Shown here in pieces: positions 8,984-43,074 of a DNA stretch of 64,000 nt. Source of the DNA: Actinokineospora spheciospongiae (GTDB lineage: Bacteria; Actinomycetota; Actinomycetes; Mycobacteriales; Pseudonocardiaceae); assembly GCF_000564855.1 (NCBI RefSeq), contig NZ_AYXG01000004.1, positions 124,001 to 188,000 of the forward strand, written 5' to 3'. The notes beneath the pieces were generated by a model, which was not told the DNA's origin, made no database searches, and was given only the letters and a program-made list of their open reading frames with translations. Within the stretch, counting starts at the first letter, position 1. Every line of letters begins with the position of its first letter. A program made the translations under genes and the position numbers.

Positions 8984-9010
8984 CCTGACCCCCTGAACGG
9001 AGGACCCACG

Positions 9011-9250: not shown

Positions 9251-9313
9251 CAACCACCCACCCCGCCCCGGCACACGCCCACCCACGCCCGAACGCAACG
9301 AGAGGACACCGTC

Positions 9314-10576: not shown

Positions 10577-10628
10577 TCACTCAACCCGCCCGACCACCAA
10601 CCGCGACCGTTGCGAAAGGACCGAAACC

Positions 10629-25900: not shown

Positions 25901-26072
25901 CGATCTCGTCGTCGTAGCCGCGAGCGAGCAGGTTCTGACGCAGCAGCGTCTCGTCGACGTTGGAGTTGTCGTAGTCCTCGCGGTTGCCACCGTAATCGTA
26001 CTCCAATTGGTCGACGAACAGATTGACGATGCGGTTCTGCGTCTCGCGCTCTCGTTGGCCGACGTCACTCAT
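22962..26072 (-). CDS. hsdR: type I restriction enzyme, R subunit
   Basis: This is a 1036-residue motor and nuclease subunit. An N-terminal PD-(D/E)xK nuclease (RPDLVLYVNGIALGVIELKR, key ELK near residue 148) is followed by a superfamily 2 helicase with Walker A GSGKS near 281 and DEAH near 396. A second RecA-like domain has the LLIVVDKLLTGFDAP region. A long helical C-terminus contacts the methylase. It cuts DNA lacking the host methylation after ATP-driven translocation. The gene overlaps hsdS by 4 bases and the metallopeptidase gene by 14. All motifs seem intact, so the system is probably active. Confidence 0.95.
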   Translation of the reverse strand: MSDVGQRERETQNRIVNLFVDQLEYDYGGNREDYDNSNVDETLLRQNLLARGYDDEIVGRAVQQLLTTVSLAAGQSLYDVNRKVYSLLRYGVKVKRDVGETYETVRLIDWDNPTANHFVVAEEVTIKGEHTKRPDLVLYVNGIALGVIELKRSYVSVSEGIRQNIGNQKQHFVRSFFTTVQLLFAGNDVEGLRYGVIETPQKYWLTWREPDCSPVGADIANPLDRTLTQMAGKDRFLELIHDFIVFDSGVKKTARHNQFFGVKAAQKRIRSREGGIIWHTQGSGKSLTMVWLAKWIQENQTDPRVLIITDRTELDEQIEKVFGGVNERITRTGSGAEMVTLLNQSRPWLMCSLVHKFRGSDDDKDRDEVGDEFIRELHARIPAGFRAKGNLFVFVDEAHRTQSGKIHRAMKELLPEAMFIGFTGTPLLKADKKTSTRTFGSFIHEYKYDEAVRDGVVLDLRYEARNIDQELKGAAQIDKWFDLKTKGLTDLSKARLKERWGTMQKVVSAKSRAEMIVQDILMDFEREPRLISGRGNAMLVGDSVYQACKFYELFVQAGFKGKVAIVTSYMPNATAVSKEDAGEGDNEELRKYDIYRQMLADYFNQPADKAVKRIEEFEAEVKRRFIEEPGQMRLLIVVDKLLTGFDAPSATYLYIDKTMRNHGLFQAICRVNRLDGDDKTYGYVIDYRDLFKSIDKAITAYTGEALDGYAEEDIEGLLKDRVEQDRMDLDEALERIRALCEPVAPPKGIVEYQHYFVSTIPGDADQIKANEPKRVELYKSVAALVRAYAVLANDMDAAGYSEADAASIAIEVKHYVAVRNEVEVGARENVDMKQFEAGMRALLDTYIQADPAEQVAAFDQGLVHLIVEQGIGALGALPPRIRENPQAVAETIVNNVRRTIVDERVLNPKYYDRMSALLDALVEQRNQAAIEYADFLNQLIDLAQQVGTGESTAAYPAWARTPARRALVDFGWPQGSAVDPEYLHDVIQSSKEHGWAGNPMKERALARALIKALPKGCDPDDLKRLIALLKVHDEYR

Positions 26073-27298: not shown

Positions 27299-29745
27299 TC
27301 GGAGACTCCCATCGCCACCAGATGTCCCCGCAACTTCGCTGCCAGCTCCTCGGCCTTGGCATCAAGATCGCTGGCGGTGAACTCATACCTCTCTGCCAGA
27401 GTTAGTAGTCTTGCAACGAGAGCTTGGCCCAGTGCCGTGACCTCCGCGCCGATCCGGCTGCTGATCGTCCCGCCCCACTTGTCATCGATGATGAGCGCTT
27501 GGATGTCCTCGGTAGTGAGCTTGCCGTAGTGCGCGAGGGCCTGCTCGTGGAGCTTGATTGTCGCTTCCTTGACGGCCTTCTTCGTGGCAGCCTCGGCAGC
27601 GAACAGTTTTATCACGTGATTGAGCGCTTCGATCTCCTCGGCCTCGGCCTTCTCGGCCTTCGCAGCCTTGAGGCGATCTTTGGCGAGTTTGGCCGAGACC
27701 TTGCCCTCATCATCTGCCGCATCCCAGAGCAGACCGTCCTCGACGACTTGCTCCTCGATGTATTCCTCGATGGCCTGGGCAGCGGCCTCCTGCTCGACGA
27801 CGAGGTCATCGAGGTTGACCTTCTCTTCGGGAAAGAACCGGGCGATGACGTACTCCGGCGGGATCAAGTCCATGACCCAGCGCTTGGCATTCGCGCCGGT
27901 GCCGAACACGAAGTGGGAGTCCTCGTACTTGGTCTTGTTGTTCTTGTCCTTCCAGGTGCGAGCCGCGCGCGGCTTGGCTACGGGGTCCCAACCCTCACCC
28001 ACGATCAGAACCACGTCGTCGTGCATCGAGGCGTTCCAGTAGCTCATGAGCTGCTCGTACACGCCGTACTCATCGATGAGCGGTCGGGGACGGAAGGCCT
28101 CCAGCAGCGCTTCAGAGACTTCTTCGATCAGGTCGTTCGGTCGGGTCGTTCTGGTGATGTCGGCCAGCACCTTTCGGCGCGAAGCCCACCACTCGGCAAC
28201 GGTATCAGTCGTACCTGCAGCAAAGGCCTGGTACTCGCTTGAGTCGGTGATGGTCGTCTGGATGTCGGCTTTTTCGACTGCCAGCTCAGAATAGCCGTCG
28301 TGTAGCGGTTTGAACAGCTCGGCGCGCAGGCTGGGGAAGGCATCCCAGTAAGGTTGCAGTGCGTCCAGGTCCCGGTTCGGGATTCCGCCCTGGAGATGGG
28401 CGCGCAGGTCCTGAATGTCTTCGAGCTCGGAGCTGTCGATGTAGCGCGAGATGTTGAGGTTGTAGTCGTTCTTCGGGTCGGCGATCTCCTTGAGCGGCAC
28501 CATGCGTGAGAACCGCTGGATCTCCTTCTGGTTGACGAAGGCGTCGACAATCTTGTGCATGTCGCGCGATCGAAGGCGATTCTTCGGACCGTCCTTCTCG
28601 AATCCCTTGGAAGCGTCGATCATGAAGGTCCCGGTCCGACTGACAGCATCCTTCTTATCGAGCACGATGAGACAGGCGGGGATGCCGGTGCCGTAGAAGA
28701 GGTTGGCTGGCAGACCGATGATCGCCTTAATGTAGCCTCGCTTGACCAACTCCTGACGGATCTTCGCCTCGGTGTTGCCGCGGAAGAGCACACCGTGCGG
28801 CATGACCACGACACCCTTGCCGGTGGACTTCAGCGACTTGACCATATGCAGCAGGAACGCGTAGTCGCCGTTCTTGTCTGGAGGGGTGACGAAACCGTCG
28901 AAGCGGCCATAGTCCTTCTCAACGCCGTTCTTCCATGTCTTCACAGAGAAGGGCGGATTGGCGACTAGATAGTCGAAGGTGTCCAGCCGGTCGTTCTCAC
29001 GGAACTTCGGGTCGGCCAAGGTGTTACCCTGTTCGATCACGTGGGTCTCGTTGCCGTGCAGGATCATGTTCATGCGGGCCAGCGCCCATGTGGCGTTGTC
29101 GTTCTCCTGGCCGTAGATGGTCAGGCCATGCGGAGCTGCATCAACAACCTTGATCAGCAGTGATCCAGATCCACAGGTGGGGTCATAGACCGTAGTGGCC
29201 TTCGGCGTGCTGGCCGGGATCTGGAGCAGCTGCGCCATAACACGAGACACCTCGGCAGGGGTGTAGAATTGACCCTTGCTCTTGCCCGACTGCGTGGCGA
29301 AGTGACGCATCAGGTACTCGTAGGCGTCGCCGAGCAGATCGTCGCCCTCCGCCTTTGAGCCGGAGAAGTCCATGTCCTGGAAGATGCCGATCAGGTTCGA
29401 CACCTTGTCCTGAAGGTCCTTGCCGGAGCCAAGCTTGGTTGGGTCGTCAAAATCAGCGTTGTTGATGACACCTTGCAGGTTGTTCGCCTCCGCGAGTTTG
29501 CGGATGGCGACGTTGACCCTCTCGCCGACGTCTGGCCGGCCCTTGAGCGTGATCAGGTAGTCGAATGAGCCGTCCTCGGGCACGTCAATGAGTGCATACG
29601 GATCGGCCTTAGCCTTGTCTGACACGTACTTCACGAACAGCAGCGTCAGGACGTAGTCCTTGTACTGACTGGCGTCCATGCTGCCGCGGAGCTCATCGGC
29701 ACTGCTCCAAAGAGAGCTGTACAGGTCTGACTTTTTGAGAGCCAT
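27295..29745 (-). CDS. hsdM: type I restriction-modification methyltransferase subunit
   Basis: This is an 816-residue N6-adenine methyltransferase. The ATG at 29745 (MALKKSDLYSSLWSSADELR) follows a GAAAGGG 10-12 bases upstream and matches the usual HsdM N-terminus. The S-adenosylmethionine motif (DPTCGSGSLLIKV, near residue 187-199) and the catalytic NPPF (near 262) are intact. The C-terminal 250 residues are longer than the E. coli type and end in a helical, Lys/Glu-rich segment, as in many actinobacterial HsdM proteins. It is the first gene of the hsdM-hsdS-hsdR operon, so host methylation is made first. Confidence 0.95.
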   Translation of the reverse strand: MALKKSDLYSSLWSSADELRGSMDASQYKDYVLTLLFVKYVSDKAKADPYALIDVPEDGSFDYLITLKGRPDVGERVNVAIRKLAEANNLQGVINNADFDDPTKLGSGKDLQDKVSNLIGIFQDMDFSGSKAEGDDLLGDAYEYLMRHFATQSGKSKGQFYTPAEVSRVMAQLLQIPASTPKATTVYDPTCGSGSLLIKVVDAAPHGLTIYGQENDNATWALARMNMILHGNETHVIEQGNTLADPKFRENDRLDTFDYLVANPPFSVKTWKNGVEKDYGRFDGFVTPPDKNGDYAFLLHMVKSLKSTGKGVVVMPHGVLFRGNTEAKIRQELVKRGYIKAIIGLPANLFYGTGIPACLIVLDKKDAVSRTGTFMIDASKGFEKDGPKNRLRSRDMHKIVDAFVNQKEIQRFSRMVPLKEIADPKNDYNLNISRYIDSSELEDIQDLRAHLQGGIPNRDLDALQPYWDAFPSLRAELFKPLHDGYSELAVEKADIQTTITDSSEYQAFAAGTTDTVAEWWASRRKVLADITRTTRPNDLIEEVSEALLEAFRPRPLIDEYGVYEQLMSYWNASMHDDVVLIVGEGWDPVAKPRAARTWKDKNNKTKYEDSHFVFGTGANAKRWVMDLIPPEYVIARFFPEEKVNLDDLVVEQEAAAQAIEEYIEEQVVEDGLLWDAADDEGKVSAKLAKDRLKAAKAEKAEAEEIEALNHVIKLFAAEAATKKAVKEATIKLHEQALAHYGKLTTEDIQALIIDDKWGGTISSRIGAEVTALGQALVARLLTLAERYEFTASDLDAKAEELAAKLRGHLVAMGVSE

Positions 29746-29856
29746 TACCACGCCACCCTTTCGCTCAACCCGAGACCTGAGCCTGCCCGAATCCCTGCGG
29801 CGAGGCGTGCATGTGACCTGTCCATCCTTGACACCTGTCTCTATGTAACGTAACGT

Positions 29857-29889
29857 GCAACAGTTATTACAAAGAGTGATGACTGTTGC
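29857..29889. promoter_or_regulatory. inverted repeat upstream of hsdM, possible operator
   Basis: GCAACAGT at 29857-29864 and ACTGTTGC at 29882-29889 form a perfect 8-bp inverted repeat with a 17-base spacer, about 110-145 bases before the hsdM start. On the - strand a TTGTAA (in the spacer) and a TACATA downstream could be promoter elements, but their spacing (about 19) is poor. A regulator bound here could control the restriction operon; none is encoded nearby. Confidence 0.4.
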
Positions 29890-30210
29890 GAGCGTTCTCA
29901 CGATAGCGCCGTGCACCGACGAAGCAGCTCATTGGTACGGATCGGCTCTGGTGCCGCTGTTCCTGTAGCTCAGCGGCGGACTGGCGCCGGTTGTGCTCGG
30001 ACCCCGCGCGCTGGAGCAGGGCCTGTGAGCAGCGTCTGCCCCGTTCGACCTCGATATGCTGGCCCTCGGGCCTGGTGGCCACGAGGAGCGGTTACTCGAC
30101 GTGACCCGACACTAGGGTGCATCCCTGGCCTTCGCGCGCTGACGACAGCGTCTGGCCCCAGCGAGGACGGGGTCTGTCAAACGAGCGGTGTAACTCTGGG
30201 TTGAAAGGGG
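29890..30210. other. intergenic region, no supported gene
   Basis: About 320 bases between the hsdM promoter region and the transposase remnant. No frame has a good start site or a recognisable product. It probably contains debris from insertion events. Confidence 0.4.
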
Positions 30211-30696: not shown

Positions 30697-30706
30697 CTGA
30701 CGACCG

Positions 30707-30780
<74 letters not shown>

Positions 30781-30988: not shown

Positions 30989-32194
30989 CTACAGGCGGCC
31001 GGTGGGGAGGTGGCCTGCGGTGAGGGCTTCGACCTGTTCGGGGGTGAACGGGGGGTTGAGCAGGATTTCGTGGGTGGCGTAGCAGCGGAACATGTCGGCT
31101 ATGTAGTGCATTCGGTCTGGGAGGTCGGACCAGTCTTCGGCGGCGGTGTCCAGGGGGCTGTCGGGGGTGGGGTCGACCTGGTGGAGGAGGGCGAGGAGGT
31201 CGGGGTTGGTGAGGTGGGTCAGGGGGGCGGGGTAGGTGGCGGTGAGGTCGTCGCTGAGGTCCAGGTGGGTGTTGTTGGGGAGGGTGAGGGTGAGGAGGAG
31301 TTTGGTGATGGTTTTGCGGGTGAGGGTGCGGGCTGGTTCCAGGAGGGTTTCGACAGTGGCGCGGAGGAGGGTGATGAGGGGGAGGGCGATGTGGGGGAGA
31401 GGAGATGGGGTGCGGGGGCGGGGGGATGGGGTGTGAGGTAGGGGGCTGGAGGTGTGGGGCGGGAGCTCGTGGGTCAAGAACTGGGGGGTTCGGATGGGGG
31501 TGGTCAGGGCGGCGGTGATCTCGGGTTGCAGGCGGGTTTGTTCGTGCAGGCCGACCTCGATGTTGGCCAGGAGCAGGAGTTCGGTTCGGGCCTTCGGGTC
31601 CTCGGTGAACCTGGCTCGGTAGTAGTGGGTGAACGCCTGCTGGAGGTAGTGCTGGCCGTTGGGGGGCGGGCCGGGGCGGAGGGTGGCGCAGAAGGCGGCG
31701 ATTCGCTGGTCGTCGGGGGTTTGGGTGTGGGCGAACTCGGTCAGGAAGCGGGCGAACTCGTGGGCGATTTCGGCGAAGACCTTGAGGTTGCCTCGTGCTC
31801 CGGCCTCGCTGGCTGCTTCGAGGCGGGTGAGGGTGGCGATGGGGTGGTGGACCAGGCGTTCGGCGACTTGGTGGGGGAGTGCTCGGCGTAATGCTTCCGC
31901 GAGCAGGGCGGCTATGGCGGAGGACTGGGGGGAGGCGGTGAGGAGTCTTTCGGCCAGGCGGCGGGGGTCTTCCTGGCGGATGGTTTGGCCGACCTGTTTT
32001 GAGGCCCACACCGCGAAGGTGCACCAGTTGGCCGAGCCGCCGGTGAAGTCGGTGAGGGCTCGGGACAGGGCGTGGTAGCAGTGGGTGATCATCAGGTTGC
32101 GGATGATCGGGTCGGGATGGGCGGCGATGCGGGTGACGTCGGCGACCGTCGGGGTGGGGGGTTCCTGCACGTCCGCGCGGAGGGGGGTGGTCAT
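30989..32194 (-). CDS. hypothetical protein, 401 residues, family common in actinomycetes
   Basis: The ATG at 32194 (MTTPLRADVQEPP) is preferred because GGAAGG lies upstream; longer starts lack one. The N-terminal half contains MITHCYHALSRALTDFTGGS followed by ANWCTFAVWASKQVGQTIRQ, and the middle has THYYRARFTEDPKARTELLL and ANIEVGLHEQTRLQPEI. I know this pattern from uncharacterised streptomycete-type proteins but no function. Around residues 255-285 there is a Pro/Thr/Ser/His repeat-like insertion. It has no signal peptide. Whether it belongs to the lanthipeptide locus beside it is uncertain; a gap of 280 bases separates them. Confidence 0.75.
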   Translation of the reverse strand: MTTPLRADVQEPPTPTVADVTRIAAHPDPIIRNLMITHCYHALSRALTDFTGGSANWCTFAVWASKQVGQTIRQEDPRRLAERLLTASPQSSAIAALLAEALRRALPHQVAERLVHHPIATLTRLEAASEAGARGNLKVFAEIAHEFARFLTEFAHTQTPDDQRIAAFCATLRPGPPPNGQHYLQQAFTHYYRARFTEDPKARTELLLLANIEVGLHEQTRLQPEITAALTTPIRTPQFLTHELPPHTSSPLPHTPSPRPRTPSPLPHIALPLITLLRATVETLLEPARTLTRKTITKLLLTLTLPNNTHLDLSDDLTATYPAPLTHLTNPDLLALLHQVDPTPDSPLDTAAEDWSDLPDRMHYIADMFRCYATHEILLNPPFTPEQVEALTAGHLPTGRL

Positions 32195-32476
32195 CGAGGG
32201 GGCCTTCCTGTCCGGGGTTCGCAGGGCCATGACAGGTGTCGCGCGGGTGGGGGTTGTTGTTAGGGGTGATCTGTCGGTGTTCGCGCGGCTGGGGTTGGGG
32301 GAGTTGGCTGGGGGGTAAGGGGGAGTCGGCTGTCGGGCTTCGCTGGTGTGGTTGCTTGGGGCGGGGGTGGTCGGGTTGCGGGGTTTCGGTGGGGTGGGCA
32401 TTCAAGAGTTGGCGACCGGGCTCCGCTGGGGTGCTCGGTGCCGGAGGGAATTGGCTGCGGGGGATTGGTGGGGTGG

Positions 32477-33397
32477 TCACTTGGGGCAGGGGCAGTCCGG
32501 GGTGAAGCCGGTCAGTCGGGTGCAGAGCAGTACCGGGCCGGAGGATGAGCTGACCTGGAGCGTTCCGTCGGAGCGGGTGGTCAGGAGCACGGTCACCGCC
32601 TCGGCTCCCTGGTGGGGCTCGGTCGACTTGCCGTCCAGGTTGTGGTCGCGGGTGCGGTGGTTGAACGCGTACAGGCCCGCCGCGGCGGCCAGGGCCAGCC
32701 ACAGGATGCCGAGTAGCAGGTAGCGGAGCGTCAGGTCCTCGGTGAACGCCGCGGCCACGGCGCTCTGCATGGCTCCGAACGTCGGGAGGAGGGTGACCCC
32801 GCCGCCCGCTGAGGACGGGGTGATGATCGGGTTCTGGACCATCACGTCGACCAGGCTGATCATGATGATCAGGAACATCCCGGCCAGTTCCGTGCGGAAC
32901 ACCATTGCCAGGACGATCCCGATGCCGCCGTAGGTCAGGCCGCTGACGGACAGGCTCACCAGCAGCAACACGAACTGCTCGGGGCGCCAGAACAGCAGTA
33001 GCAGCAGGGAGGCGTACAGGGCGACCACCCCGGCGGCGGCGAGCAGGGCGAGCAGCTTGGCCAGCAGCAGCGCCGAGCGGGGGAAGCCCGCCAGGACCAG
33101 GCGGCGGTCGAAGTCGGCTGAGCGGCGGACGGCGGTGAACATCATGAAGCCGACGATCAGGGTGACCGCGTTCATCGCCCCGGAGATCATGCCCAGCTCG
33201 TTGGCGTCCACCGGGATGGTCCGGCCCGCTGGGCGGGAGTGGAAGTCGACGGGTTCGCTGGGGATGATCACGTTCACCAGCAGCAGCCACACCGGGATGA
33301 ACACCAGCACCAGGGCGAGGGCGACCCGGTTGCGGGAGTGCTGGGTGATCTCGTGCCTGGTGGCGTCGGACAGCGAGTCCGACCAGGTCGCCGTCAT
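32477..33397 (-). CDS. ABC transporter permease with Ser/Cys-rich C-terminal tail
   Basis: This is a 306-residue ABC-2-type membrane protein with six predicted helices between residues 25 and 245 (VALALVLVFIPVWLLLVNVI first). It pairs with the ATPase gene upstream, which it overlaps by 4 bases. The pair probably exports the lanthipeptide or protects the producer from it. An unusual soluble tail of about 50 residues follows the last helix and ends SSSSGPVLLCTRL-TGFTPDCPCPK, with three Cys. That tail is not a normal part of such permeases. The gene ends the lanthipeptide operon. Confidence 0.85.
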   Translation of the reverse strand: MTATWSDSLSDATRHEITQHSRNRVALALVLVFIPVWLLLVNVIIPSEPVDFHSRPAGRTIPVDANELGMISGAMNAVTLIVGFMMFTAVRRSADFDRRLVLAGFPRSALLLAKLLALLAAAGVVALYASLLLLLFWRPEQFVLLLVSLSVSGLTYGGIGIVLAMVFRTELAGMFLIIMISLVDVMVQNPIITPSSAGGGVTLLPTFGAMQSAVAAAFTEDLTLRYLLLGILWLALAAAAGLYAFNHRTRDHNLDGKSTEPHQGAEAVTVLLTTRSDGTLQVSSSSGPVLLCTRLTGFTPDCPCPK

Positions 33398-34242
33398 GCC
33401 CCGGTCACCTTCCGCGCCGTGGCGGCGGCTCGGCCGACGGTCTTGCGGACCGCGCCGACCGTTCGGGCCGCGGGGGGTTCAGGGCGCCGCGTGGCGCCCG
33501 TGGCCTTGGCGGTCGCGGTCCTGGTGCCCTTCTGCGTCGAAGGCTTGCCGACGGCGGGTTCCCCGTCCGCGGTGGCCTGCTCGATCGCGGTCCGCTCGAG
33601 TGCCGGCGCCCCGACCGCGGGCGGGTCGACGGCCTCCTCGGTGGTGAGGCGGCCCTCGCGGAGTTTGTGCAGGCGGTCGAAGCGGGCGGTGTCGTGGGCC
33701 AGGTGGGAGATGATCAGGACCGACCGGCCGCGGTCGCGCAGTTCCTCCGCGATGGACCAGAAGTTGAGGTAGTTGTCCCAGTCGAAGCCCTGGTAGGGCT
33801 CGTCCATCAGCACCACGTCGGGGTCGTGCATGAGGGCGATCGTCAGGTTGAGCTTCTGCCGCGTCCCGCCGGAGAGCAGGCCCGCCTTGACCGACCGGTG
33901 CCGCTCGTAGCCCAGCCGCTCCACCAGTTGGTTCGCGTGCTCCAGCGAGCGCAGCCCGTAGGCCCGCCGGAACAGGGCCAGGTGCTGGTCGGGGGTCAGC
34001 TCGTCGTTCAGCACGATCTTCTGCGGGCAGTAGCCGAGCCTGCCCGCGTAGAGCGCGTCGCCGCGGTCGGCGGGGAGTTCGCCCGCCAGGACCCGCAGCA
34101 GGGGCGACTTGCCCGCGCCGTTCTCGCCGATGATCCCGAACAGCTCGCCGGGGGCGAGGTCGAACTCGACGCCGCGCAGCACCTCGTGGCCCCGGAAGGA
34201 CTTGTGCAGGTCGACCACCCGCAGTACGTTTCTGTGCTCCAT
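33394..34242 (-). CDS. ABC transporter ATP-binding protein
   Basis: This is a 282-residue ATPase partner of the following permease. GGGAGGACC precedes the ATG. Walker A is GENGAGKSP (a Pro replaces the usual Thr/Ser), the Q loop lies in GRLGYCPQKI, the signature is LSGGT and Walker B is VVLMDEP, then a His switch in ISHLAHD. The C-terminal 70 residues are a Pro/Ala/Thr/Lys-rich extension without fold. The gene lies between lanC and the permease gene, the usual place for an export or immunity transporter in such loci. Confidence 0.9.
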   Translation of the reverse strand: MEHRNVLRVVDLHKSFRGHEVLRGVEFDLAPGELFGIIGENGAGKSPLLRVLAGELPADRGDALYAGRLGYCPQKIVLNDELTPDQHLALFRRAYGLRSLEHANQLVERLGYERHRSVKAGLLSGGTRQKLNLTIALMHDPDVVLMDEPYQGFDWDNYLNFWSIAEELRDRGRSVLIISHLAHDTARFDRLHKLREGRLTTEEAVDPPAVGAPALERTAIEQATADGEPAVGKPSTQKGTRTATAKATGATRRPEPPAARTVGAVRKTVGRAAATARKVTGA

Positions 34243-34275
34243 TTCGGTCCTCCCAGGACATCGGGGTCAGGGCGG

Positions 34276-35472
34276 TCAGGTCAGGGCGAGGCAGCGCAGC
34301 CAACCCCGGTCGGCGCCCGCGGTGGTCAGCAGCGCGGCCAGCACCCCGGTGGCCCCGGACAGCAGGGTGGTGTCGGTGCCCGCGAGGCGCGCCACCCGGT
34401 CGAGTCGGTCGTGCAGGTGCCCGGTGAGCCAGTCGCGCAGCGCGGCGGCGGGTGCTGACCCGGTGTGGCGGGCGAAGGCGTCGGCCACGAGCAGCACCCC
34501 GGCCGCGCCGTGGCAGACCCCCAGCCGGTCGCTGTCGCGGTCGCCGTCGAGGTGCACGTCGGCGTCGTAGCCCCCGCACAGCGTCCCCACCGCCCGCACC
34601 GCGAGGTCGCACAGGTCCTCCCCACCGGGGGCGCCCGCGCGGACCAGTGCCCGCCCGGCCGCCCACAGCGCCCAGCTCACCCCGGGGTTGCCGTAGCACC
34701 AGCCCTGCCGGTGGGCGACGGCTTCCGGTTCCCCGCCCGCGGCGTACCGCCAGGACACGATCCCGGCGCCGTCGACGTAGAGCCCGGCGACCAGCCAGGT
34801 CGACAGGTGCGCCACGGCGCGGACCGCCTCCTCGGTGGGGTCCACCGCCGACAGCGCGGCCAGGACCCCGGCGGCGCCGTGCGCCAGGCCGGTGACGACG
34901 TCGCCCTGGGTCCAGCCGACCAGCGGGTGGTCGCGGTGGGCGCCGATCCGCAGGCCCGCCAGGTCGGGTTCGGCGGCGAGGGCGGCCAGGTGCGCGGCCG
35001 CGCCCCCCGGGGGTGTTCCGGCGGGCTGCGCCAGCAGCGTTCCGGCCGGGCCGCTGACCAGGTCGTAGTCGGTGAAGCCCACGGCCGAGGTGCGCCACGG
35101 CCTGCGGTCGGCCGCGGTGGCCAGTGACCGCGCGGCCCGCTGCGCCGCGGGGCCGACGTCGGGTCGGACCCCCGCGATCAGGCCCAGCCCGGCCACCAGA
35201 CCGGACAGCCCGTCGTGCAGCCCGGTCCCCGCCCGGCCGCGCAGGCCGGTGCGCAGCCACAGGTCGGTGGCCTCGCCGCAGGTCCGGCGCTGCTCCCCGG
35301 TGGCGTCGGGGTGCGCGGCCACGAGGGTGGAAAGCACGGCCGGACCCAGGTCGGGTCCGGCCGTGCCCATCGGGTGACGAGCCGTCCAGGAGGTGAGCAC
35401 GTGGTCCGCGACCAGCAGCAGGTCCCGCGTCGAGGCGTTGCGCGGGGTGGTCAACACGTCGGGAACCACCAT
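34276..35472 (-). CDS. lanC: lanthionine synthetase C-like cyclase (LanC)
   Basis: This is a 398-residue zinc enzyme that joins Cys thiols to dehydroalanine or dehydrobutyrine, forming the thioether rings of a class I lanthipeptide. The zinc ligands are seen as C259 (QGWCYGNPG) and C320-H321 (LGVCHGAAG); H198 lies in GLAHGAAG, the conserved histidine region. The alpha/alpha-barrel repeats (GxxG motifs such as LSGLVAGLGL and GAAGVLAAL) are clear. GGAAAGGAG precedes the ATG. The gene follows the precursor peptide gene by 24 bases. Length is normal for the family. Confidence 0.93.
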   Translation of the reverse strand: MVVPDVLTTPRNASTRDLLLVADHVLTSWTARHPMGTAGPDLGPAVLSTLVAAHPDATGEQRRTCGEATDLWLRTGLRGRAGTGLHDGLSGLVAGLGLIAGVRPDVGPAAQRAARSLATAADRRPWRTSAVGFTDYDLVSGPAGTLLAQPAGTPPGGAAAHLAALAAEPDLAGLRIGAHRDHPLVGWTQGDVVTGLAHGAAGVLAALSAVDPTEEAVRAVAHLSTWLVAGLYVDGAGIVSWRYAAGGEPEAVAHRQGWCYGNPGVSWALWAAGRALVRAGAPGGEDLCDLAVRAVGTLCGGYDADVHLDGDRDSDRLGVCHGAAGVLLVADAFARHTGSAPAAALRDWLTGHLHDRLDRVARLAGTDTTLLSGATGVLAALLTTAGADRGWLRCLALT

Positions 35473-35495
35473 CTCCCGCTCCTTTCCGGCTCAGC

Positions 35496-35654
35496 TCAGC
35501 AGTACCAGTGCCAGGACCAGCCGCCGCCGCAGCCGCCGCTGCACAGGAGCAGTGACACGGCCTCCCCGCGGTCCGCGGAGTCCAGTTCGGTGATCTGCGC
35601 GTCGAGTTGCTCGACAAGTTCGTCGAGGTCGGCGAGTTCCACTGTGGATTGCAC
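35496..35654 (-). CDS. lanA: class I lanthipeptide precursor peptide
   Basis: A 52-codon gene read directly from the - strand; GTG start with GAAGGAG 6 bases upstream. The leader (residues 2-30) is acidic and helical with ELADLDELVEQLDAQITELD. The C-terminal part ends SLLLCSGGCGGGWSWHWYC (residues 34-52). It has exactly three Ser and three Cys, arranged S34-C38, S39-C42 and S47-C52, so three lanthionine rings are possible. It is preceded by the dehydratase gene and followed at 24 bases by lanC. The leader cleavage site is not obvious; no protease is encoded in the locus. I recognise no known peptide with this core. Confidence 0.85.
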   Translation of the reverse strand: MQSTVELADLDELVEQLDAQITELDSADRGEAVSLLLCSGGCGGGWSWHWYC

Positions 35655-35721
35655 GGTGTTCTCCTTCGCTTGACTGACTTCCCCACCGGTGGACCCGGTG
35701 GTGCTCGGGGGCGGGTCGGCG

Positions 35722-38193
35722 CTACACCGCCGTCACGAAGCGGTTCGCCGCCTCGGTGGGCGGGCTCAGGCCGCGCCACGCCCTGGCCGCCCGGTCGGCC
35801 ACCCGGGCCAGCCCGGGGTCCGCTGGGAGGCGGATGACCAGTTGGGCGGCGAGGCCCTGGCCGAGTTCGTCGCGCACCGGCAGGTGCTCCGGGTCGGGCA
35901 GCATCTCCTCCAGCACGAGCGCGGGGACAGCGGGGTCGGCGAGCAGGCGGTCGAACACGCGCAGCGCGGTGACGCTGTCCAGGTCGACCGGTCGCGGTCG
36001 CCGCCCGCCCGCCGCCCGCACGAAGTTCCAGCGCGGGGCGCCGGTGGCCGCGCGCAGGTCCGCCAGCCTGCGCACCCGCTCGACCACCGGGTCGCCGGGG
36101 CTCGGCAGGGCCGCGCGTTCGACGCGGACGGTGGCCCCGGCGATCACCAGCCCGCCGTCGAGCACCAGTCGGGGGGTGCGGGCGCGGCCGGGGAAGGCGG
36201 CGGCGGGGTCGCCCAGGAGCAGCGGTGCGGCCAGGTGGCCGATGGGCGCGGCGGCACTGAGCAGCGCCACCACGACGTCCCACGGTGCCATCGGCGTCCG
36301 GGTGGCGTGGCAGACCGGCCACAGCGGCTTGCCGTCGGCGTCCTCGGCGACGACCCGCCCGTCCCGCCTGCGCACCAGGACACGGTCCAGCGGCAGGTAG
36401 CGCCCCGGTCCCGCCTGCCCGGCGAAGTAGGTCGACAGGTCGGCGTCGCCGGTCCAGGTGCGGGTGTAGCGGGGTCTGCGGACCGCGTTGGCGCTGCGGT
36501 CGTCCTGCGGGGGCACCAGGACCTCGACGACCTCCGCCCCGCACCGGGTGGTGACCTCGGCCAGGAAGCCGCGGTAGTCCTCGACCTGCGGCACCCGGCC
36601 GTGCAACTGGTGCAGCGCGTCGGCGAATCGGGCGTCGAGCACCCCGGCGGGCAGCACGGCCTCCAGCACCGCCACCGGCCCGTCGCCGGGCAGCGGCCGC
36701 ACCAGGCAGTCGACCGGCCACGGTGGCAGCGCCGCGGGTGGGGCGCCGACCCGGTCGAGCGCGGCGGCGTCGATGTCGACCTCGTCGGCGTCGGCGTGCC
36801 CGGCGAGCCAGTCGGCCAGCCGCTGGTAGGCGCCGCCCGGCCGCGGTTCGGGCCACTCGGTGGCGGGCGGGGTGGGCGGGCGGTGCTCCGCGCCGTCGAG
36901 GAATTCCGCGACGACCTCGGAGGCGGGCCGGGGTTCGGGGCCGACCAGGTCGAGCACCGGGTGGCCGCCGCCGGTGCCCCCGGCGTCCTCGGCCAGGACC
37001 GCGCCGAGCCTGCCCGCCTGGGCGACGAGCCCGGCCAGCCGGGTCACCGCGGCGGCGGGGACGTGCCCCCGGCCGCGGCGGTAGACGTCGACGAAACCCC
37101 TGTCCGCCACCACCCCGCGCGGGTTGGGCGACCAGTCCCGCAGGTTCGACACCGGCTGGGCGGAGAGCTGGAGCACGCCCAGCCCGGCCAGGTGGCGCAG
37201 GAACGCCCGCACCGTCGGGTGGTGCCGGTCCTCCGGGGCGAGCAGCCGGACCACGTCGGCGGTCCGCAGCGCCCCCGGGCCGAGCAGGTGCCGGACGGCG
37301 TCCACCGCCGGGGTGCGGCGGACGCGCACCAGCCGCAGGCCCTTGGTGCTGTCGTGGTCGGCCACCCAGCAGCACAGCCGGGCCCCCCGCACCCAGTGCA
37401 GGCCGGTGATGCTCAGCCAGGCGTCGGGCAGGTCGGCGGCCGTGGCCAGCACCCGGCGGTCGGCCTGGATGTTCGACAGCGAGTGCACGGCGTAGTCGGT
37501 CACCTCGAACCCGGGCAGCAGCCGGGTGTCGCGGTCCGGGGCCACGCCCACGAGCGCGACCTGCCCGAGCCAGCCGCGCGGGGTCGTCTTCAGCGCCGCC
37601 CGCGACAGCAGGCGCAGCAGGTAGTCCGCGCGCTGGCGCAGCCGCTTGTCGGTCCACCGCTCGCCCGCGGCCAGCCTGCCGCGGATCTCGTCGAGCACCT
37701 CGGGGGCGGTCTGGGAGACCACCCTGGCGGCGGTGGGGGAGTCGGTGACCAGTTCCCACGGCAGCGCGGCGAGCCTGCTCCGCTCGGCGAGCACCGCGTC
37801 CGCGCACTCCGCGCGGGCGGTGGTGAGCGCGGTCGACCAGGTCGCCGCCCGGACCAGGTCGTCGGTCAGCGCCTGCGGCACCCCGAGGGCGACGCCCACG
37901 ACGGCCAGGCGCCTGCACTGCGGCCCGTCGACCGGTTCGCCGCGGGTGAGCTGTCTGCGCAGGGTGATCGCCGAGGTCCGCACGGGCGCGGACAGGTCGG
38001 GGTGCGGCACCAGTTCGGCGCTGACCCGCTCGGCGAGCGCGGCGGCGAACGACCGGTGGTCGGCCTCGTCGCGGCTCAGCCGCCGCAGGGCGTCGAACAG
38101 CCCGGGGTTGCCCGCTTCGGCGACCAGGGCGGCCGGGACACCGGAGACGCGCAGCAGCCCGGCGGGGCCCTCGGGGCGGAAGTCAGCGGACAT
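35722..38193 (-). CDS. lanB: lantibiotic dehydratase, glutamylation protein of a split LanB
   Basis: This is an 823-residue protein of the LanB N-terminal family. It activates Ser/Thr of the precursor by transfer of glutamate from glutamyl-tRNA. Typical segments are FDALRRLSRDEADHRSFAAA, RLRQRADYLLRLLSRAALKT and TTPRGWLGQVALVGV near residues 180-210, and RYLPLDRVLVRRRDGRVVAE near 600. Full-length LanB enzymes are about 1000 residues and include an elimination domain. Here that domain is a separate protein encoded immediately upstream, overlapping by 11 bases. The split form is known from thiopeptide loci and some lanthipeptide loci. Confidence 0.92.
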   Translation of the reverse strand: MSADFRPEGPAGLLRVSGVPAALVAEAGNPGLFDALRRLSRDEADHRSFAAALAERVSAELVPHPDLSAPVRTSAITLRRQLTRGEPVDGPQCRRLAVVGVALGVPQALTDDLVRAATWSTALTTARAECADAVLAERSRLAALPWELVTDSPTAARVVSQTAPEVLDEIRGRLAAGERWTDKRLRQRADYLLRLLSRAALKTTPRGWLGQVALVGVAPDRDTRLLPGFEVTDYAVHSLSNIQADRRVLATAADLPDAWLSITGLHWVRGARLCCWVADHDSTKGLRLVRVRRTPAVDAVRHLLGPGALRTADVVRLLAPEDRHHPTVRAFLRHLAGLGVLQLSAQPVSNLRDWSPNPRGVVADRGFVDVYRRGRGHVPAAAVTRLAGLVAQAGRLGAVLAEDAGGTGGGHPVLDLVGPEPRPASEVVAEFLDGAEHRPPTPPATEWPEPRPGGAYQRLADWLAGHADADEVDIDAAALDRVGAPPAALPPWPVDCLVRPLPGDGPVAVLEAVLPAGVLDARFADALHQLHGRVPQVEDYRGFLAEVTTRCGAEVVEVLVPPQDDRSANAVRRPRYTRTWTGDADLSTYFAGQAGPGRYLPLDRVLVRRRDGRVVAEDADGKPLWPVCHATRTPMAPWDVVVALLSAAAPIGHLAAPLLLGDPAAAFPGRARTPRLVLDGGLVIAGATVRVERAALPSPGDPVVERVRRLADLRAATGAPRWNFVRAAGGRRPRPVDLDSVTALRVFDRLLADPAVPALVLEEMLPDPEHLPVRDELGQGLAAQLVIRLPADPGLARVADRAARAWRGLSPPTEAANRFVTAV

Positions 38194-39139
38194 GGCCGTC
38201 CGTCCCGGCGAGCGCGGTGGCGATCAGTGCCTGGGTGCCCGGGCTCAGCGCGGCGCGGTTCCAGTGGAAGATCGTGTGGTAGCAGGCCGCTTCACGGGGG
38301 CCGATGACGGCGCGTTCGGTGCCGAAGTACTCCGCCCACCACCGCTCGCACAGCGGGCGCACCCGTTCGGCGTGCCGGTCGGCCAGCGCGCGGACGTCGG
38401 CGGGCAGCGCCGCGGCCAGTGCGTCGGGGTCGGCCCAGTGCCCGCGCAGCCGCGCGGTGACCGGGCCCTCGACCGGGGCCGACCCCGGGGGCGTGCGGCG
38501 GCCGGAATCCGCCACCCGGCCCCAGACGTCGCGATCCTCCCAGCCGACGACCCGCAACCCGTCGAACACCGCGCGCAGCATCAGCAGCGACAGCGCCCAG
38601 GCGGGGGTCTCGCGCGCGGTGGCGTGGTGCTCCAGCCAGGTCAGCGAGTCCACTGTGAACAGGCGGTGCACGTGCGGCATGGACTCGTTCCCGCCGAACA
38701 GGTGCGCCTCCGGCTCGTAGACCGCCGAGCGCACGCCCCGGACCAGCCCGGCCGCCCGCCACCGCTCGGCGTGGCGCCGGACCTCGGCGCGGACGAACTG
38801 GCCGTGGCCGCGGGCCGGGGCGAAGCGGACCCGCAGCCCCGGCGGCTTGTGCATGAAGAAGAACTCCGCGGCCGCCCCGCCGTCGAGCAGTTCGTGCGCG
38901 GTCGCGGCCAGCTCCGGGTACAGCGCGGACAACCCGCCGGGCGCCACCTCCAGGCCGAGCTGCACCCACTCGCCGCCGCGGGCCGCGCGCAGCGCCGCCG
39001 TGCCCGCGGCCAGGAACGTCCGCTGCGCGTCGGTCAGCTCGCCGCCCGCGACGTCGGAGAGCGCGCTCGCGCAGTCGGCGAGGAACGCCGCCATGGGGGC
39101 CACCCCCTCGGCCGGGGGCGCGGTGGTGGGCAAGGACAT
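38183..39139 (-). CDS. thiopeptide-type dehydratase elimination protein (split LanB C-terminal part)
   Basis: This is a 318-residue protein of the 'thiopeptide-type bacteriocin biosynthesis' (SpaB C-terminal) family. It removes glutamate from the activated Ser/Thr and leaves dehydroamino acids. Diagnostic segments are WVQLGLEVAPGGLSALYPEL, then FFFMHKPPGLRVRFAPA and a C-terminal FHWNRAALSPGTQALIATAL. It is encoded directly before the glutamylation protein, so the two probably act as one complex. The start at ATG 39139 is supported by context; an alternative Met 15 residues in is possible. Confidence 0.9.
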   Translation of the reverse strand: MSLPTTAPPAEGVAPMAAFLADCASALSDVAGGELTDAQRTFLAAGTAALRAARGGEWVQLGLEVAPGGLSALYPELAATAHELLDGGAAAEFFFMHKPPGLRVRFAPARGHGQFVRAEVRRHAERWRAAGLVRGVRSAVYEPEAHLFGGNESMPHVHRLFTVDSLTWLEHHATARETPAWALSLLMLRAVFDGLRVVGWEDRDVWGRVADSGRRTPPGSAPVEGPVTARLRGHWADPDALAAALPADVRALADRHAERVRPLCERWWAEYFGTERAVIGPREAACYHTIFHWNRAALSPGTQALIATALAGTDGHVR

Positions 39140-39230
39140 GTCGACTCCACTCGGGGTGCGGGAGGTGGTCGGGGGAGCGGTGGTGCGGAGTGGACCGGTG
39201 GGGCCGGGGTCACTGCCGCCGCGGTGGGCC

Positions 39231-39518
39231 TCAGGAGGCGTCGTCCGGCTCCACGTGGATCAGCAGCCAGCCGCCTTCGCACTTCCACGATTCCTCTTCC
39301 AGCGCCTCGGACTGCTGGGCCATCGTCCCCACCTGCGTGCAGAAGCCCTCGGTGCCGAAGAAGAACACCGGGAACCACATGCCCTCGGGCGTGGGCGCGG
39401 ACGCCGCCGCGGGCGCGGGCGGGTTGCCCGCGGGGGCGGGCTGCGCGGTGGCCGAGCCCGCCGAGCCGACGGCGAACGCGGCCGTGAGCAGGGACGCGGC
39501 GAGGGCGGTGCGGATCAT
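39231..39518 (-). CDS. small secreted protein of the lanthipeptide locus
   Basis: This is a 95-residue protein with a clear signal peptide (MIRTALAASLLTAAFAVGSA, then GSATAQP with cleavage after ATA). The mature part of about 68 residues has a Pro/Ala-rich start, then EGMWFPVFFFGTEGFCTQVG and a helix ending EESWKCEGGWLLIHVEPDD. Two Cys could form a disulphide outside the cell. An AGGAGG precedes the ATG. It is the first gene of the locus on this strand after the prenyl synthase gene and has no match I recognise. It may be an immunity or maturation factor. Confidence 0.75.
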   Translation of the reverse strand: MIRTALAASLLTAAFAVGSAGSATAQPAPAGNPPAPAAASAPTPEGMWFPVFFFGTEGFCTQVGTMAQQSEALEEESWKCEGGWLLIHVEPDDAS

Positions 39519-39585
39519 CTTTTTCCTCCTGTTGGGATTTCACGGCCCGCCTGCGGTGCGCAGGCGGTTGTCGGTGGTGTGCCGG

Positions 39586-40689
39586 TCAGCGGTCGCGGTG
39601 GACCACGGTGTCGGCGAGGTCGGCGAGCACCCCCCGGACGGGGTGGGGGATCGCGCTGTCGGCCAGCGCTGAGAGCGCCTGCTCGGTGCGGTCGGCGATC
39701 AACCGCTCGACCAGCGCCGCCGCGCCGGTGCCGTCGATCACCGCGCGCAGCGCCGCCGCCCCCGCCTCGTCGAGCAGCGGGTTGCCGTACAGCTCGCGCA
39801 GCACGGCCCGCTGCGCGGCGGTGGCGCGCTGCCCGGCCACCGCGACGAGCACGGTCGGCTTGCCCTCGCGCAGGTCGTCGAGCACCGGTTTCCCGGTGAC
39901 CGCCGGGTCGCCGAACACGCCGAGCAGGTCGTCGCGAAGCTGGAACGCCTCGCCAAGCGGGCGACCGTACTCGGCGCACCGCCGCGCCAGCTCGGCGTCA
40001 CCACCGGCCAGGGCGACGCCGATCTGCAACGGGCGCTCGACGGTATAGCGGGCGGTCTTGAGCCGGACGACCCGCCAGGCGTGGGCGAGGGCGTCGCCCG
40101 CGGGCCGGTGGTGCAGGTCCAGGTACTGCCCGGCCATGACCTCGGTGCGCATCGCGTCGAGGAACGGGCGCGCCGCGGCCACGCGGTCGGCGTCGAACCC
40201 GGTGCCGTGCAGCAGTTCGTCCGACCACACCAGGCACAGGTCGCCGAGCAGGATCGCCGCGTTCTCCCCGAAGCGGTCGGCCGCGACCGCGGCGGTGCCC
40301 CCGGCCCGGTCCGGGCAGCGGGCGGCCGGCTCGCGGTGCACGGTCGGGTTGCCCCGCCGCAGGTCGGAGCCGTCCATCAGGTCGTCGTGGATGAGGGCGA
40401 AGGAGTGGAACAGCTCCAGCGCCGCGCCCACCGCCGCCACCGCGCGCTCGTCGGGGTCCCCGCCCGCGGCGAGCCAGCCGCAGTGGCAGAAGACCGGCCG
40501 CAGGCGCTTGCCGCCCGCGACGAACCGGCGCACGGTGTCGACCACCGGCGGCAGGCACTCGTCCGCGGCGTTCGCCGCCTTGCCCGCCAGGAAACCGTCG
40601 AGCACGACGTCGACCTGGCGCCGGACGGCCGCGGCCAATGCCTTCCCGGAGACCGGTGAATGCGGTTCCATTTGCGTGGCGAGTGACAT
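39586..40689 (-). CDS. polyprenyl (isoprenyl) diphosphate synthase
   Basis: This is a 367-residue trans-isoprenyl diphosphate synthase. ATG 40689 with GGGAGG 5 bases upstream is preferred over a GTG 24 bases earlier. The first Asp-rich motif is IHDDLMDGSDLRRG (D102, D103, D106), followed by RRGNPTVH. The second is QLRDDLLGVFGDPAVTGKPV. The residue five before the first Asp is Phe97, which in some families limits chain length to about geranylgeranyl, but the product cannot be read with certainty. It condenses isopentenyl diphosphate with allylic diphosphates. The DXS gene divergently next to it would feed the same pathway. Confidence 0.9.
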   Translation of the reverse strand: MSLATQMEPHSPVSGKALAAAVRRQVDVVLDGFLAGKAANAADECLPPVVDTVRRFVAGGKRLRPVFCHCGWLAAGGDPDERAVAAVGAALELFHSFALIHDDLMDGSDLRRGNPTVHREPAARCPDRAGGTAAVAADRFGENAAILLGDLCLVWSDELLHGTGFDADRVAAARPFLDAMRTEVMAGQYLDLHHRPAGDALAHAWRVVRLKTARYTVERPLQIGVALAGGDAELARRCAEYGRPLGEAFQLRDDLLGVFGDPAVTGKPVLDDLREGKPTVLVAVAGQRATAAQRAVLRELYGNPLLDEAGAAALRAVIDGTGAAALVERLIADRTEQALSALADSAIPHPVRGVLADLADTVVHRDR

Positions 40690-41163
40690 TTGCCCTCCCA
40701 GGCGTGCTTTCACGCCACGGTTGGAGAAAGGCGGCGGTCGGCGCTGTCGGCAATTGCTTCACGAACGTAACACTCGCCTGGGGCATCGTCAGTACGACTA
40801 CCGGCCCTTTTGCCCTGCCAGCCGTTAGCGGGATGCCCTTCTACCGATCGGGGTGTATGACCGGTCGGAAGACACCGTCCGTGTCCAGGGCGTTCGCCTG
40901 ATGGTGCCGCGATTTTTTCTGGTTCTGGATGTTTGAACGGACAAGTCAAGTCCCCGACCAGGAGACCACCTGTCGAGGCGAGGCGGAAACAGGCTTTCGA
41001 GTGAGAATCCCGAACCCGGCCGGATTTCCGGTTGAACGCGGCGCAGGCTGTCGTATGGTGGAGATCATTCCTGATCCCGGACTCCTCCTGGCGACCCGGG
41101 TGCCTGCCTCCTCTTTTCCCCCGGCTCGCCCAGGATCATTCGACGACGCCCCAGGACGCGATC
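40690..41163. other. divergent promoter region between prenyl synthase and dxs genes
   Basis: About 470 bases, less GC-rich than the genes. It must hold promoters for both divergent genes. Open frames here start without ribosome-binding sites. I see no clear operator or riboswitch. Confidence 0.45.
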
Positions 41164-43074
41164 ATGAGTGGACAGATCCTCACCGGCCCGGCACTCCCCC
41201 TCGGCCGGGGCGGGCCGGTCCCCGAGACCGCCGCCCCCGCGTTCCCGGACGCCCTGCTCGACCGCGTGCGCGGCCCGGCCGACCTGCGCGGGCTGACCGC
41301 GGCGGAGCTGCGCGGCCTCGCCGCGGAGATCCGGGAGCTGCTGGTCGAGGTGGTCACCCGGGTGGGTGGGCACCTCGGGCCCAACCTGGGCGTGGTGGAG
41401 CTGACGATCGCGCTGCACCGGGTCTTCGACTCCCCGCGCGACGCGATCGTGTTCGACGCCGGGCACCAGGGCTACGTGCACAAGCTCCTCACCGGCAGGC
41501 GCGCGGAGTTCGCGCTGCTGCGCCAGGCGGGCGGGCAGTCCGGCTACCCGAGCCGGGCCGAGTCGCCGCACGACCTGGTGGAGAACTCGCACGCCTCCAC
41601 CGCCCTGTCCTACGCCGACGGCCTGACCCGCGCGTTCGCGGGCAAGCGCGGCAAGCGGCACGTGGTGGCCGTCGTCGGCGACGGCGCGCTGACCGGCGGC
41701 ATGTGCTGGGAGGCGCTGAACAACATCGCGGTCAGCGGTCGCCCGGTGGTGGTGGTCCTCAACGACAACGGCCGCTCCTACGCCCCGACCGCAGGCGCCG
41801 TCGGCAGCCACCTCGCCCACCTGCGCGAGGACGCGGGCGGCTACCACCTGTCGGTGTTCGAGAGCCTGGGCATGTCCTACGTCGGCCCGGTCGACGGCCA
41901 CGACGTCGGGGCGCTGGAGGCCGCGCTGGGGAAGGCGCGCGCCCTCGGCCGCCCGGTCGTGGTGCACTGCGTGACCACCAAGGGCAAGGGGCACCCCCCG
42001 GCCGAGCGGGACGAGGCGGACCGCCTGCACACGGTGCCCCCGGCGAACGCCGAGAGGCCCGCGGGCCCCACGTGGACGTCGGTGTTCGCCCGGGAGGTCG
42101 TGGAACTGGGCAGGCGGCGCCCGGACATCGCCTGCCTCAGCGCGGCGATGCTGCGGCCCACCGGGTTGCAGGCCTTCGCCGAGGAGTTCCCGGAGCGGAC
42201 CCACGACGTGGGCGTAGCCGAGCAGCACGCGGTCACCAGCGCCGCCGGGCTGGCGATGGGCGGGCTGCACCCGGTGGTGGCGGTGTGCTCGACGTTCCTC
42301 ACCCGGGCGCTGGACCAGGTGCTCATGGACGTGGCCCTGCACGCGCTGCCGGTCACCCTCGTGCTGGACCGGGCCGGGGTCACCGGCGACGACGGCCCCA
42401 GCCACCACGGTGTGTGGGACCTGTCGCTGTTGCAGGCGGTGCCCGGCCTGCGGATCGCGGCCCCCCGCGACGGCGAGCAACTGCGCGCGCTGCTGGGCGA
42501 GGCCGTGCGGGTCGACGGGCCCACCGCGCTGCGCTTCCCCCGCGGCGAGACCGGCCCCGCGGTGCCTCGGCTGCGCGCGGAGGGCGGGGTGGACGTGCTG
42601 TTCGAGTCCGGCCGCCGCGACGTCGCGCTGGTGACGGTCGGCCCGATGGCGCTGCCGGGGGTGCGCGCCGCGCTCCGGCTCGGTGAGCGGGGCACTGGGG
42701 TCACCGTGTGCGACCCGCGCTGGGTGAGCCCACCGAGCCCGGCACTGGTCGACCTCGTCGCCCGGCACCGGGTGGTCGTCTGCGTCGAGGACGGCGTCCG
42801 GGTCGGCGGGGTCGGCGCCCGCCTCGCCCAGGCGGTGCGCGACGCCGGGCACGACACCCCGGTGCACGCCCTCGGCCTGCCCGCCGAGTTCCTGCCGCAG
42901 GGCCCGCGCGCCGACATCCTGCGCCGCCACCGCCTCGACGCGGTGGGCCTGGCCAAGACCATCACCGCGCTGGTGGAAGGAGACCACTCCCGGGGTGCCG
43001 ACCCTGCCGCCGAGGCGGAGGTGCCGCACCCGCGCGGTCGGGGCGGTGATGCCCGGCCCCGGTCCGGTCGGTGA
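41164..43074 (+). CDS. dxs: 1-deoxy-D-xylulose-5-phosphate synthase
   Basis: This is a 636-residue thiamine diphosphate enzyme. It makes 1-deoxyxylulose 5-phosphate from pyruvate and glyceraldehyde 3-phosphate, the first step of the MEP isoprenoid route. Family marks are GGHLGPNLGVVELTIALHRV, FDAGHQGYVHKLLTGRR, the cofactor motif GDGALTGG...ALNN (near residue 173-190), DGHDVGALEAAL, and the transketolase middle domain with AEQHAVTSAAGLAMGGLHPV. ATG 41164 lies in the ATCATG context; the upstream region is not conserved. The C-terminal 25 residues are a basic tail. It is probably an extra copy serving a specialised pathway next to the prenyl synthase gene. Confidence 0.93.
   Translation: MSGQILTGPALPLGRGGPVPETAAPAFPDALLDRVRGPADLRGLTAAELRGLAAEIRELLVEVVTRVGGHLGPNLGVVELTIALHRVFDSPRDAIVFDAGHQGYVHKLLTGRRAEFALLRQAGGQSGYPSRAESPHDLVENSHASTALSYADGLTRAFAGKRGKRHVVAVVGDGALTGGMCWEALNNIAVSGRPVVVVLNDNGRSYAPTAGAVGSHLAHLREDAGGYHLSVFESLGMSYVGPVDGHDVGALEAALGKARALGRPVVVHCVTTKGKGHPPAERDEADRLHTVPPANAERPAGPTWTSVFAREVVELGRRRPDIACLSAAMLRPTGLQAFAEEFPERTHDVGVAEQHAVTSAAGLAMGGLHPVVAVCSTFLTRALDQVLMDVALHALPVTLVLDRAGVTGDDGPSHHGVWDLSLLQAVPGLRIAAPRDGEQLRALLGEAVRVDGPTALRFPRGETGPAVPRLRAEGGVDVLFESGRRDVALVTVGPMALPGVRAALRLGERGTGVTVCDPRWVSPPSPALVDLVARHRVVVCVEDGVRVGGVGARLAQAVRDAGHDTPVHALGLPAEFLPQGPRADILRRHRLDAVGLAKTITALVEGDHSRGADPAAEAEVPHPRGRGGDARPRSGR

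Follow-up and report, generated by a model that had tools for sequence, protein, structure and literature searches.

The stretch of Actinokineospora spheciospongiae DNA analysed here (64,000 nucleotides, called the window below) contains a small gene, lanA, that very probably encodes the precursor of a class I lanthipeptide of the SapT type with a divergent core, for which a route of biosynthesis and export and a surface-active or morphogenetic role can be proposed. SapT itself, the product of the spt genes of Streptomyces lavenduligriseus Tu901, is a surface-active morphogen (PMC9011353), which aids the aerial growth of its producers. The gene, its family, the kinship of its leader with SapT-like precursors, the enzyme families beside it, their active-site residues and their co-occurrence are read from sequence; the function of the peptide is proposed by analogy with SapT and is the part of which we are least sure. 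The original prediction described lanA as a 52-codon gene with a GTG start and an AAGGAG ribosome-binding site between the LanB genes and lanC, and its coordinates, start and sequence agree on re-examination, the strand being minus. More exactly, lanA has lanC directly on one side and the glutamyl-transferase half of a split LanB on the other. Its translation from the GTG in the window's list of open reading frames is MQSTVELADLDELVEQLDAQITELDSADRGEAVSLLLCSGGCGGGWSWHWYC (52 aa), in which the numbering originally given for three Ser-Cys pairs (S34-C38, S39-C42, S47-C52) is correct. The gene and its surroundings are as follows.

32477..33397, minus strand: permease of the ABC-2 type, possible exporter (PF01061 at E 1.7e-4, below its cut-off; a homologue lies next to the lan genes in locus L033 of the set described below)
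33394..34242, minus strand: ABC transporter ATPase, possible exporter (PF00005; also next to the lan genes in L033)
34276..35472, minus strand: lanC, cyclase, 398 aa (PF05147 above cut-off; motifs GLAHGAAG, WCYGNPG and VCHGAAG)
35496..35654, minus strand: lanA, 52-aa precursor peptide (starts at GTG; coordinates include the stop codon)
35499..35555, minus strand: core S34-C52, SLLLCSGGCGGGWSWHWYC, with predicted rings 34-38, 39-42 and 47-52
35556..35654, minus strand: leader, codons 1-33, containing the conserved ELxxLDxLVxxLD box (border before S34 assumed)
35661..35666, minus strand: ribosome-binding site AAGGAG of lanA
35722..38193, minus strand: lanB1 (SptBa-like), 823 aa, half of the split LanB for glutamylation from glutamyl-tRNA (placed through its family)
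38183..39139, minus strand: lanB2 (SptBb-like), 318 aa, glutamyl lyase on its own chain (TIGR03891, PF14028; K98, R103, R105, E144, L147)
39231..39518, minus strand: 95-aa protein, secreted-looking by eye (L033 has a homologue at this position, between prenyl synthase and lyase)
39586..40713, minus strand, as the lan genes: prenyl-diphosphate synthase, pps (PF00348; also in L033)
41164..43074, plus strand, divergent: second dxs, 1-deoxy-D-xylulose-5-phosphate synthase (TIGR00204 above cut-off; beside the lan genes in four loci)

The order of transcription is pps, the 95-aa gene, lanB2, lanB1, lanA, lanC, the ABC ATPase and the permease, with dxs divergent. A promoter scan gave nothing, and terminator-like sites occur at chance frequency. 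The 95-aa protein has no curated match above cut-off in Pfam or NCBIfam, and among the fetched loci the ABC pair adjoins the lan genes in two only, the window and L033. Beyond the permease, a 470-aa frame at 30989-32401 matches no Pfam or NCBIfam model above cut-off, and none of the fetched lan loci has a homologue of it. Type I restriction-modification genes (R, S and M, 22962-29916) border the lan region, and about 0.8 kb separates them from a tRNA-Pro gene at 30706-30780.

The two activities of a class I LanB are found here on separate chains, encoded at 35722-38193 and 38183-39139. The assignment of LanB1 was made through its family: taken by itself, the window protein matches nothing in Pfam or NCBIfam at E<=1, 18 of 22 aligned family members match the LanB glutamylation domain PF04738 at E<=1 (best 5.5e-12), and the family profile matches TbtB (PDB 6ec7, E 1.9e-15), which we take to be a glutamylating enzyme, as its sole PDB match. 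The predicted structure of LanB1, with a pLDDT of 39, was set aside. Peptide aminoacyl-tRNA ligases (PEARLs) add an amino acid to the C terminus of a peptide, and one might suppose that LanB1 is such an enzyme and that LanB2 and LanC do something else, given that LanB1 is a stand-alone protein of the LanB-N type that lacks a curated match of its own and that 13 of the 22 precursors described below end in Cys. The match to TbtB, the travelling of lyase and LanC with the precursor, and the presence in the precursor of gene-encoded Cys with Ser upstream all argue against this, and we give it a very small probability.

The second half, LanB2, carries the glutamate-elimination domain, with TIGR03891 at 86.8 bits and PF14028 at 64.5 bits, both above cut-off, and in its sequence FFFMHKPPGLRVRF (K98, R103, R105, E144, L147) it bears the marks of a syn-lyase. 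These are a conserved Lys at the position of a Tyr in NisB and, in SptBb, a Leu for Arg826 of NisB (PMC9011353, PMC9486935); SptBb produces (E)-dehydrobutyrine by net syn-elimination (PMC9890492). Both marks are present in the window protein, as K98 and as L147 in place of an Arg. Likewise, K98, R103 and R105 have the same spacing as Lys46, Arg51 and Arg53 of CoiSA(ED), in which the K46A change makes glutamylated peptide pile up and R51A and R53A lose little (PMC9486935). A comparison within the same contig sets a stand-alone lyase, FFIRKNPCWRLRF, beside a full-length LanB, WWFLRYQDPEPHLRLRF, which has Tyr at the place of the Lys. Across 19 aligned lyase rows the Lys is found in 16 (Gly in L047 and L049, Gln in L067) and the two glutamate-binding Arg in all 19; position 147 is Leu in 15, and the mark is not uniform, with Arg in L033, L036 and L037 and Lys in L035. 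Counted by locus, the Lys is present in all 22 readable cases among the 23 loci with lanC (L067 not being readable), and Gly stands in its place in all four readable loci that lack lanC (L046-L049).

Could LanB2 instead be a pyridine-forming [4+2] cyclase of the thiopeptide kind? TIGR03891 is named 'thiopeptide-type', and TbtD turns up as a weak match when a poor model of LanB2 is compared with known structures. That model (built from two sequences, mean pLDDT 53) places MibB, MadB and NisB above TbtD in a Foldseek search, which lends weak support to a lyase; together with the retention of both glutamate-binding Arg in all 19 rows and the agreement of the Lys and its spacing with the characterised CoiSA lyase (PMC9486935), this makes the cyclase reading even less probable than that of a ligase, and we continue to regard LanB2 as a glutamyl lyase. 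A tblastn search of plasmids with LanB2 returned four Streptomyces records with a best identity of 44%, two of which were inspected and are by annotation not of the SapT type. The cyclase LanC of the window has all three motifs (the Zn ligands Cys and Cys-His, and the catalytic His); by pattern search the first Cys motif occurs in 18 of 18 lanC calls, the Cys-His motif in 17 and the His motif in 13, one call being a duplicate.

The same contig holds a second class I lanthipeptide cluster (L071; G000:C4:88000-107000, at about 6327-11817). It lies about 24 kb before the start of the window, 60 kb away from lanA, and combines a LanB of full length and a LanC with a stand-alone lyase that has the Lys; a small frame there encodes an FDLD leader and a Cys-rich end. 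For LanA itself an FxLD-type leader was considered and ruled out: the peptide has no Phe, and no NCBIfam model matches it above cut-off. Neither Pfam nor NCBIfam holds a curated family that LanA matches above cut-off.

The standing of lanA as a gene was examined through its relatives. LanB1 is matched in 32 of 390 genomes of the window's family and in 11 of 46 genera; the relatives that could be named are Kutzneria viridogrisea and, by a short match, Saccharothrix deserti. The resulting set of 36 loci comprises the window and 35 stretches (32 of them of 20 kb) from 30 other genomes, a 47-residue match in G059 having been left out. A precursor profile grown from ten seeds and run on the small frames of these loci found 18 precursors at E<1e-4, in which L031 and L043 are one locus counted twice, and five more (L035, L038, L041, L056 and L057) were read downstream of lanB1. 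The final set, from which divergent candidates in L063 and L067 were left out, holds 22 peptides and counts the window among its 20 loci. Nine of the 22 were aligned, and in these L10, L13, L17, D18, C38, C42, W48 and C52 are invariant.

The precursor occupies the slot between lanB1 and lanC in 20 of the 36 loci, and its presence follows that of lanC, being found in 20 of the 23 loci with lanC (itself a weak call in L036) as against none of the 13 without. Fisher's test gives p 2.4e-7, a value that overstates the association because several of the loci belong to one genus. A search that was not anchored on lanB1, in which the nine-row alignment was run on the 390 genomes, returned 24 matches from 20 genomes and 8 of 46 genera, 22 of these matches being at most 3 kb from the coordinate of a lanB1 match; two of the matches (G222 and G073) cross a stop codon, and the search is not exhaustive, because it missed G075, where the profile run on small frames had found two precursors. 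It also bears on the possibility, raised as a refutation of the original prediction, that close homologues occur apart from lanB and lanC partners: only two matches lie away from lanB1, and both are weak (G376 C12, E 2.5e-4; G377 C4, E 3.7e-4). The co-occurrence and the unanchored search thus uphold the view of LanA as a class I lanthipeptide precursor serving the split LanB and LanC. The two distant matches (L123, G376:C12:366222-366320, and L124, G377:C4:31872-31988) are perhaps orphan precursors or chance.

In G+C-rich DNA a short open reading frame may of course arise by chance, and 54 frames of at least 40 aa overlap 31000-40000 of the window. Such an origin has next to no probability for lanA, given homologues in the same slot in so many loci, their recovery without an anchor across eight genera, and a dN/dS below 1 in all eight precursor pairs tried (0.30-0.93). 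The G+C content of lanA by codon position is 0.71/0.46/0.85. On this sequence evidence we regard lanA as a real gene and not a chance frame.

The enzymes are not always paired with a recognisable precursor, since 13 of the 36 loci with lanB1 lack both lanC and precursor and six of the 14 Streptomyces-like genomes discussed below gave none. Five loci of Kutzneria (genus g23; L044 and L046-L049) have lanB1 and lanB2, no lanC or recognisable precursor, and Gly for the lyase Lys, readable in four of the five; here the lanB1/lanB2 pair possibly has another use. In L050, L052, L053, L060 and L066 a lanB1 homologue stands in the stretch, where no lanB2, lanC or precursor was found. In L065 (G222:C1:1858000-1877999) lanB1 is in pieces and the precursor match crosses a stop codon, so that the locus looks like a decaying cluster.

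It is instructive to set LanA beside the precursors of SapT-like systems. When the lanB1 profile was run on 394 genomes drawn from the class, it matched the window's own genome and four of one genus (g71); within g71, 12 of 295 genomes then matched the window protein, and the two draws together make 14 g71 genomes. We infer that g71 is Streptomyces and that its locus L084 is close to SptA, for which it stands in here. A precursor profile built without g71 found precursors in eight of these 14 genomes (E 1.8e-13 to 1.2e-8); none passed in G562, G855, G816, G828, G851 and G1031, where the locus is in four cases a short piece and in G562 yielded no more than a leader-like match of 25 residues. 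In the reverse direction, a profile of the first 30 residues of the eight g71 precursors ranked lanA first of 1093 stop-to-stop segments of the window, at E 2.8e-4 with the next at 0.072. These reciprocal matches place the LanA leader with those of the SptA kind. The core of L084, with Thr, Ser, Thr, Thr and four Cys, fits SapT, because the latter has one lanthionine and three methyllanthionine rings (PMC9011353).

The likeness to SapT hence covers a split LanB with LanC, a lyase with the conserved Lys and a Leu at the place of NisB Arg826, a related leader, the sight of no protease in the cluster, and Ser/Thr-Cys rings in a row. The core, however, departs from the SapT type, with its Thr/Ser-Cys rings, aliphatic residues and four Cys: that of LanA has no Thr, three Cys, a last ring rich in Trp, His and Tyr, and a lower mean hydropathy (0.38 as against 1.56 for one SapT-like core). 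With no Thr in the assumed core, the D-allo-L-methyllanthionine of SapT cannot form in the product of LanA. The host is also not a Streptomyces, and dxs and a prenyl synthase adjoin its lan genes. The original prediction held the peptide to be unlike any known lanthipeptide, and this stands for the core, which is new; it does not stand for the kind, since the leader, the split LanB and the lyase residues place LanA with SapT.

These differences matter most for the proposed function. The same biosynthesis might lead to an antibacterial or a signal in place of a surfactant or morphogen, a possibility of some substance though the lesser one: the hydropathy of the core is low by comparison with the SapT-like core, which weakens the surfactant reading and speaks against a simple transfer of the function of SapT; the core is aromatic and Gly-rich; and core sequences vary strongly between loci as the leaders stay. 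Against it stand the leader and the type of enzyme, which are shared with SapT, and we retain a surface-active or morphogenetic peptide as the favoured proposal. Among the 22 cores, 15 have no Thr, 19 have at least three Cys, 13 end in Cys and 13 contain an S..W..C arrangement; the Ser-Trp pattern of the last ring occurs in 12 precursors from five genera (g1, g5, g10, g11 and g23), L062a being excluded as its Trp precedes the first Cys. Acidic tails are present on the precursors of the relatives L036 and L037.

Other known systems share single features with the window. The coi system of S. coelicolor (CoiA1) has the same Lys-Arg-Arg spacing in its lyase but uses a full-length LanB with a syn-lyase fused to a methyltransferase, whereas LanB is split here. 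In the pinensins and in the thiopeptide enzymes TbtB and TbtC, glutamyl-transferase and lyase are likewise on separate chains, yet the precursors are of other kinds, and thiopeptides differ in their chemistry as well. The class III peptide SapB (AmfS), also a morphogen, has a first ring of sequence SLLLC, like the predicted one of LanA, a likeness that is at most convergence: the window has a split LanB and LanC, and no LanKC matched above cut-off among nine scanned neighbouring proteins, which rules out a class III lanthipeptide of the SapB type. Histidine crosslinks as in noursin were also set aside, as they need a special class III cyclase (PMC10206099).

Isoprenoid genes also adjoin the locus. 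The genome of the window has two dxs genes, one of them at the lan locus; in searches of five other genomes, the best match to the latter adjoins the lan locus in G012, G040 and G041 (71-76% identity; that in G041 crosses one TGA) and lies elsewhere in G073 and G115, so that dxs is beside the lan locus in four loci of two genera. A prenyl-diphosphate synthase lies beside the lan genes, on their strand, in only two loci of two genera, the window and L033 (G040). Prenylation is known from class II lanthipeptides that bear a geranylated Trp (PMC12715784), and with Trp in its core and isoprenoid genes nearby the window resembles the MppE/MppC system; the second dxs and the prenyl synthase might then form, together with the lan genes, one unit for an isoprenoid-bearing class I lanthipeptide whose Trp-rich ring is prenylated by an unrecognised enzyme. 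We think this improbable and give it little weight because L033 has a terpene synthase beside its dxs, which suggests an ordinary terpene set, and because Trp_DMAT homologues are unlinked, being present in three of the four genomes searched, none on a lan contig and none in G040. No terpene synthase was found on the window's contig, and a search for PTase_Orf2 matched nothing anywhere and is hence uninformative. The MppE/MppC system moreover uses a class II synthetase and an ABBA prenyltransferase (PMC12715784), and of the Trp_DMAT homologues none was found linked to the lan genes here.

Returning to a SapT-type class I lanthipeptide, the pathway may be pictured as follows, its dehydration, ring pattern, leader removal and export being drawn from characterised relatives; production of SapT in E. 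coli has been demonstrated for the spt enzymes, which share this arrangement (PMC9011353). The leader box ELxxLDxLVxxLD would be the likely docking site, LanB1 would transfer glutamate from Glu-tRNA onto serines of the core, and LanB2, as a separate lyase, would remove the glutamate to leave dehydroalanine. LanC would then add the three cysteines to give three small rings in a row (34-38, 39-42 and 47-52), a pattern predicted from composition and from the conserved positions of Ser and Cys. Cleavage before S34 and three dehydrations would yield a core of 2016.82 Da. Export would perhaps use the adjoining two-gene ABC transporter, the leader would be trimmed by a protease from outside the cluster, as reported for spt, and the product would act outside the cell, most likely as a surface-active or morphogenetic peptide, which is the least certain part.

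By its sequence LanA thus has a new core in a kind already known from SapT, that of its leader, split LanB and lyase type. The published SapT search found SapT-like clusters in Streptomyces only (PMC9011353). By antiSMASH, class I lanthipeptide clusters have been reported from Kutzneria (PMC10232511) and from Crossiella (PMC9415966), the terms 'SapT' and 'LanB' being absent from the text of either paper, and in the open literature, so far as its text was accessible, no paper describing this precursor group was seen. The present loci extend a system of SapT leader and syn-lyase beyond the Streptomyces scope of the earlier work (PMC9011353) to the family that includes Kutzneria and Saccharothrix, where the cores rely on Ser. 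Given that syn- and anti-elimination of Ser both lead to dehydroalanine, this clade allows one to ask whether a syn-lyase is kept for reasons beyond stereochemistry. The loci in which the loss of lanC goes with that of the precursor and of the lyase Lys provide a natural contrast, and the five genera with a Ser-Trp ring a natural series of variants in which function may be approached.
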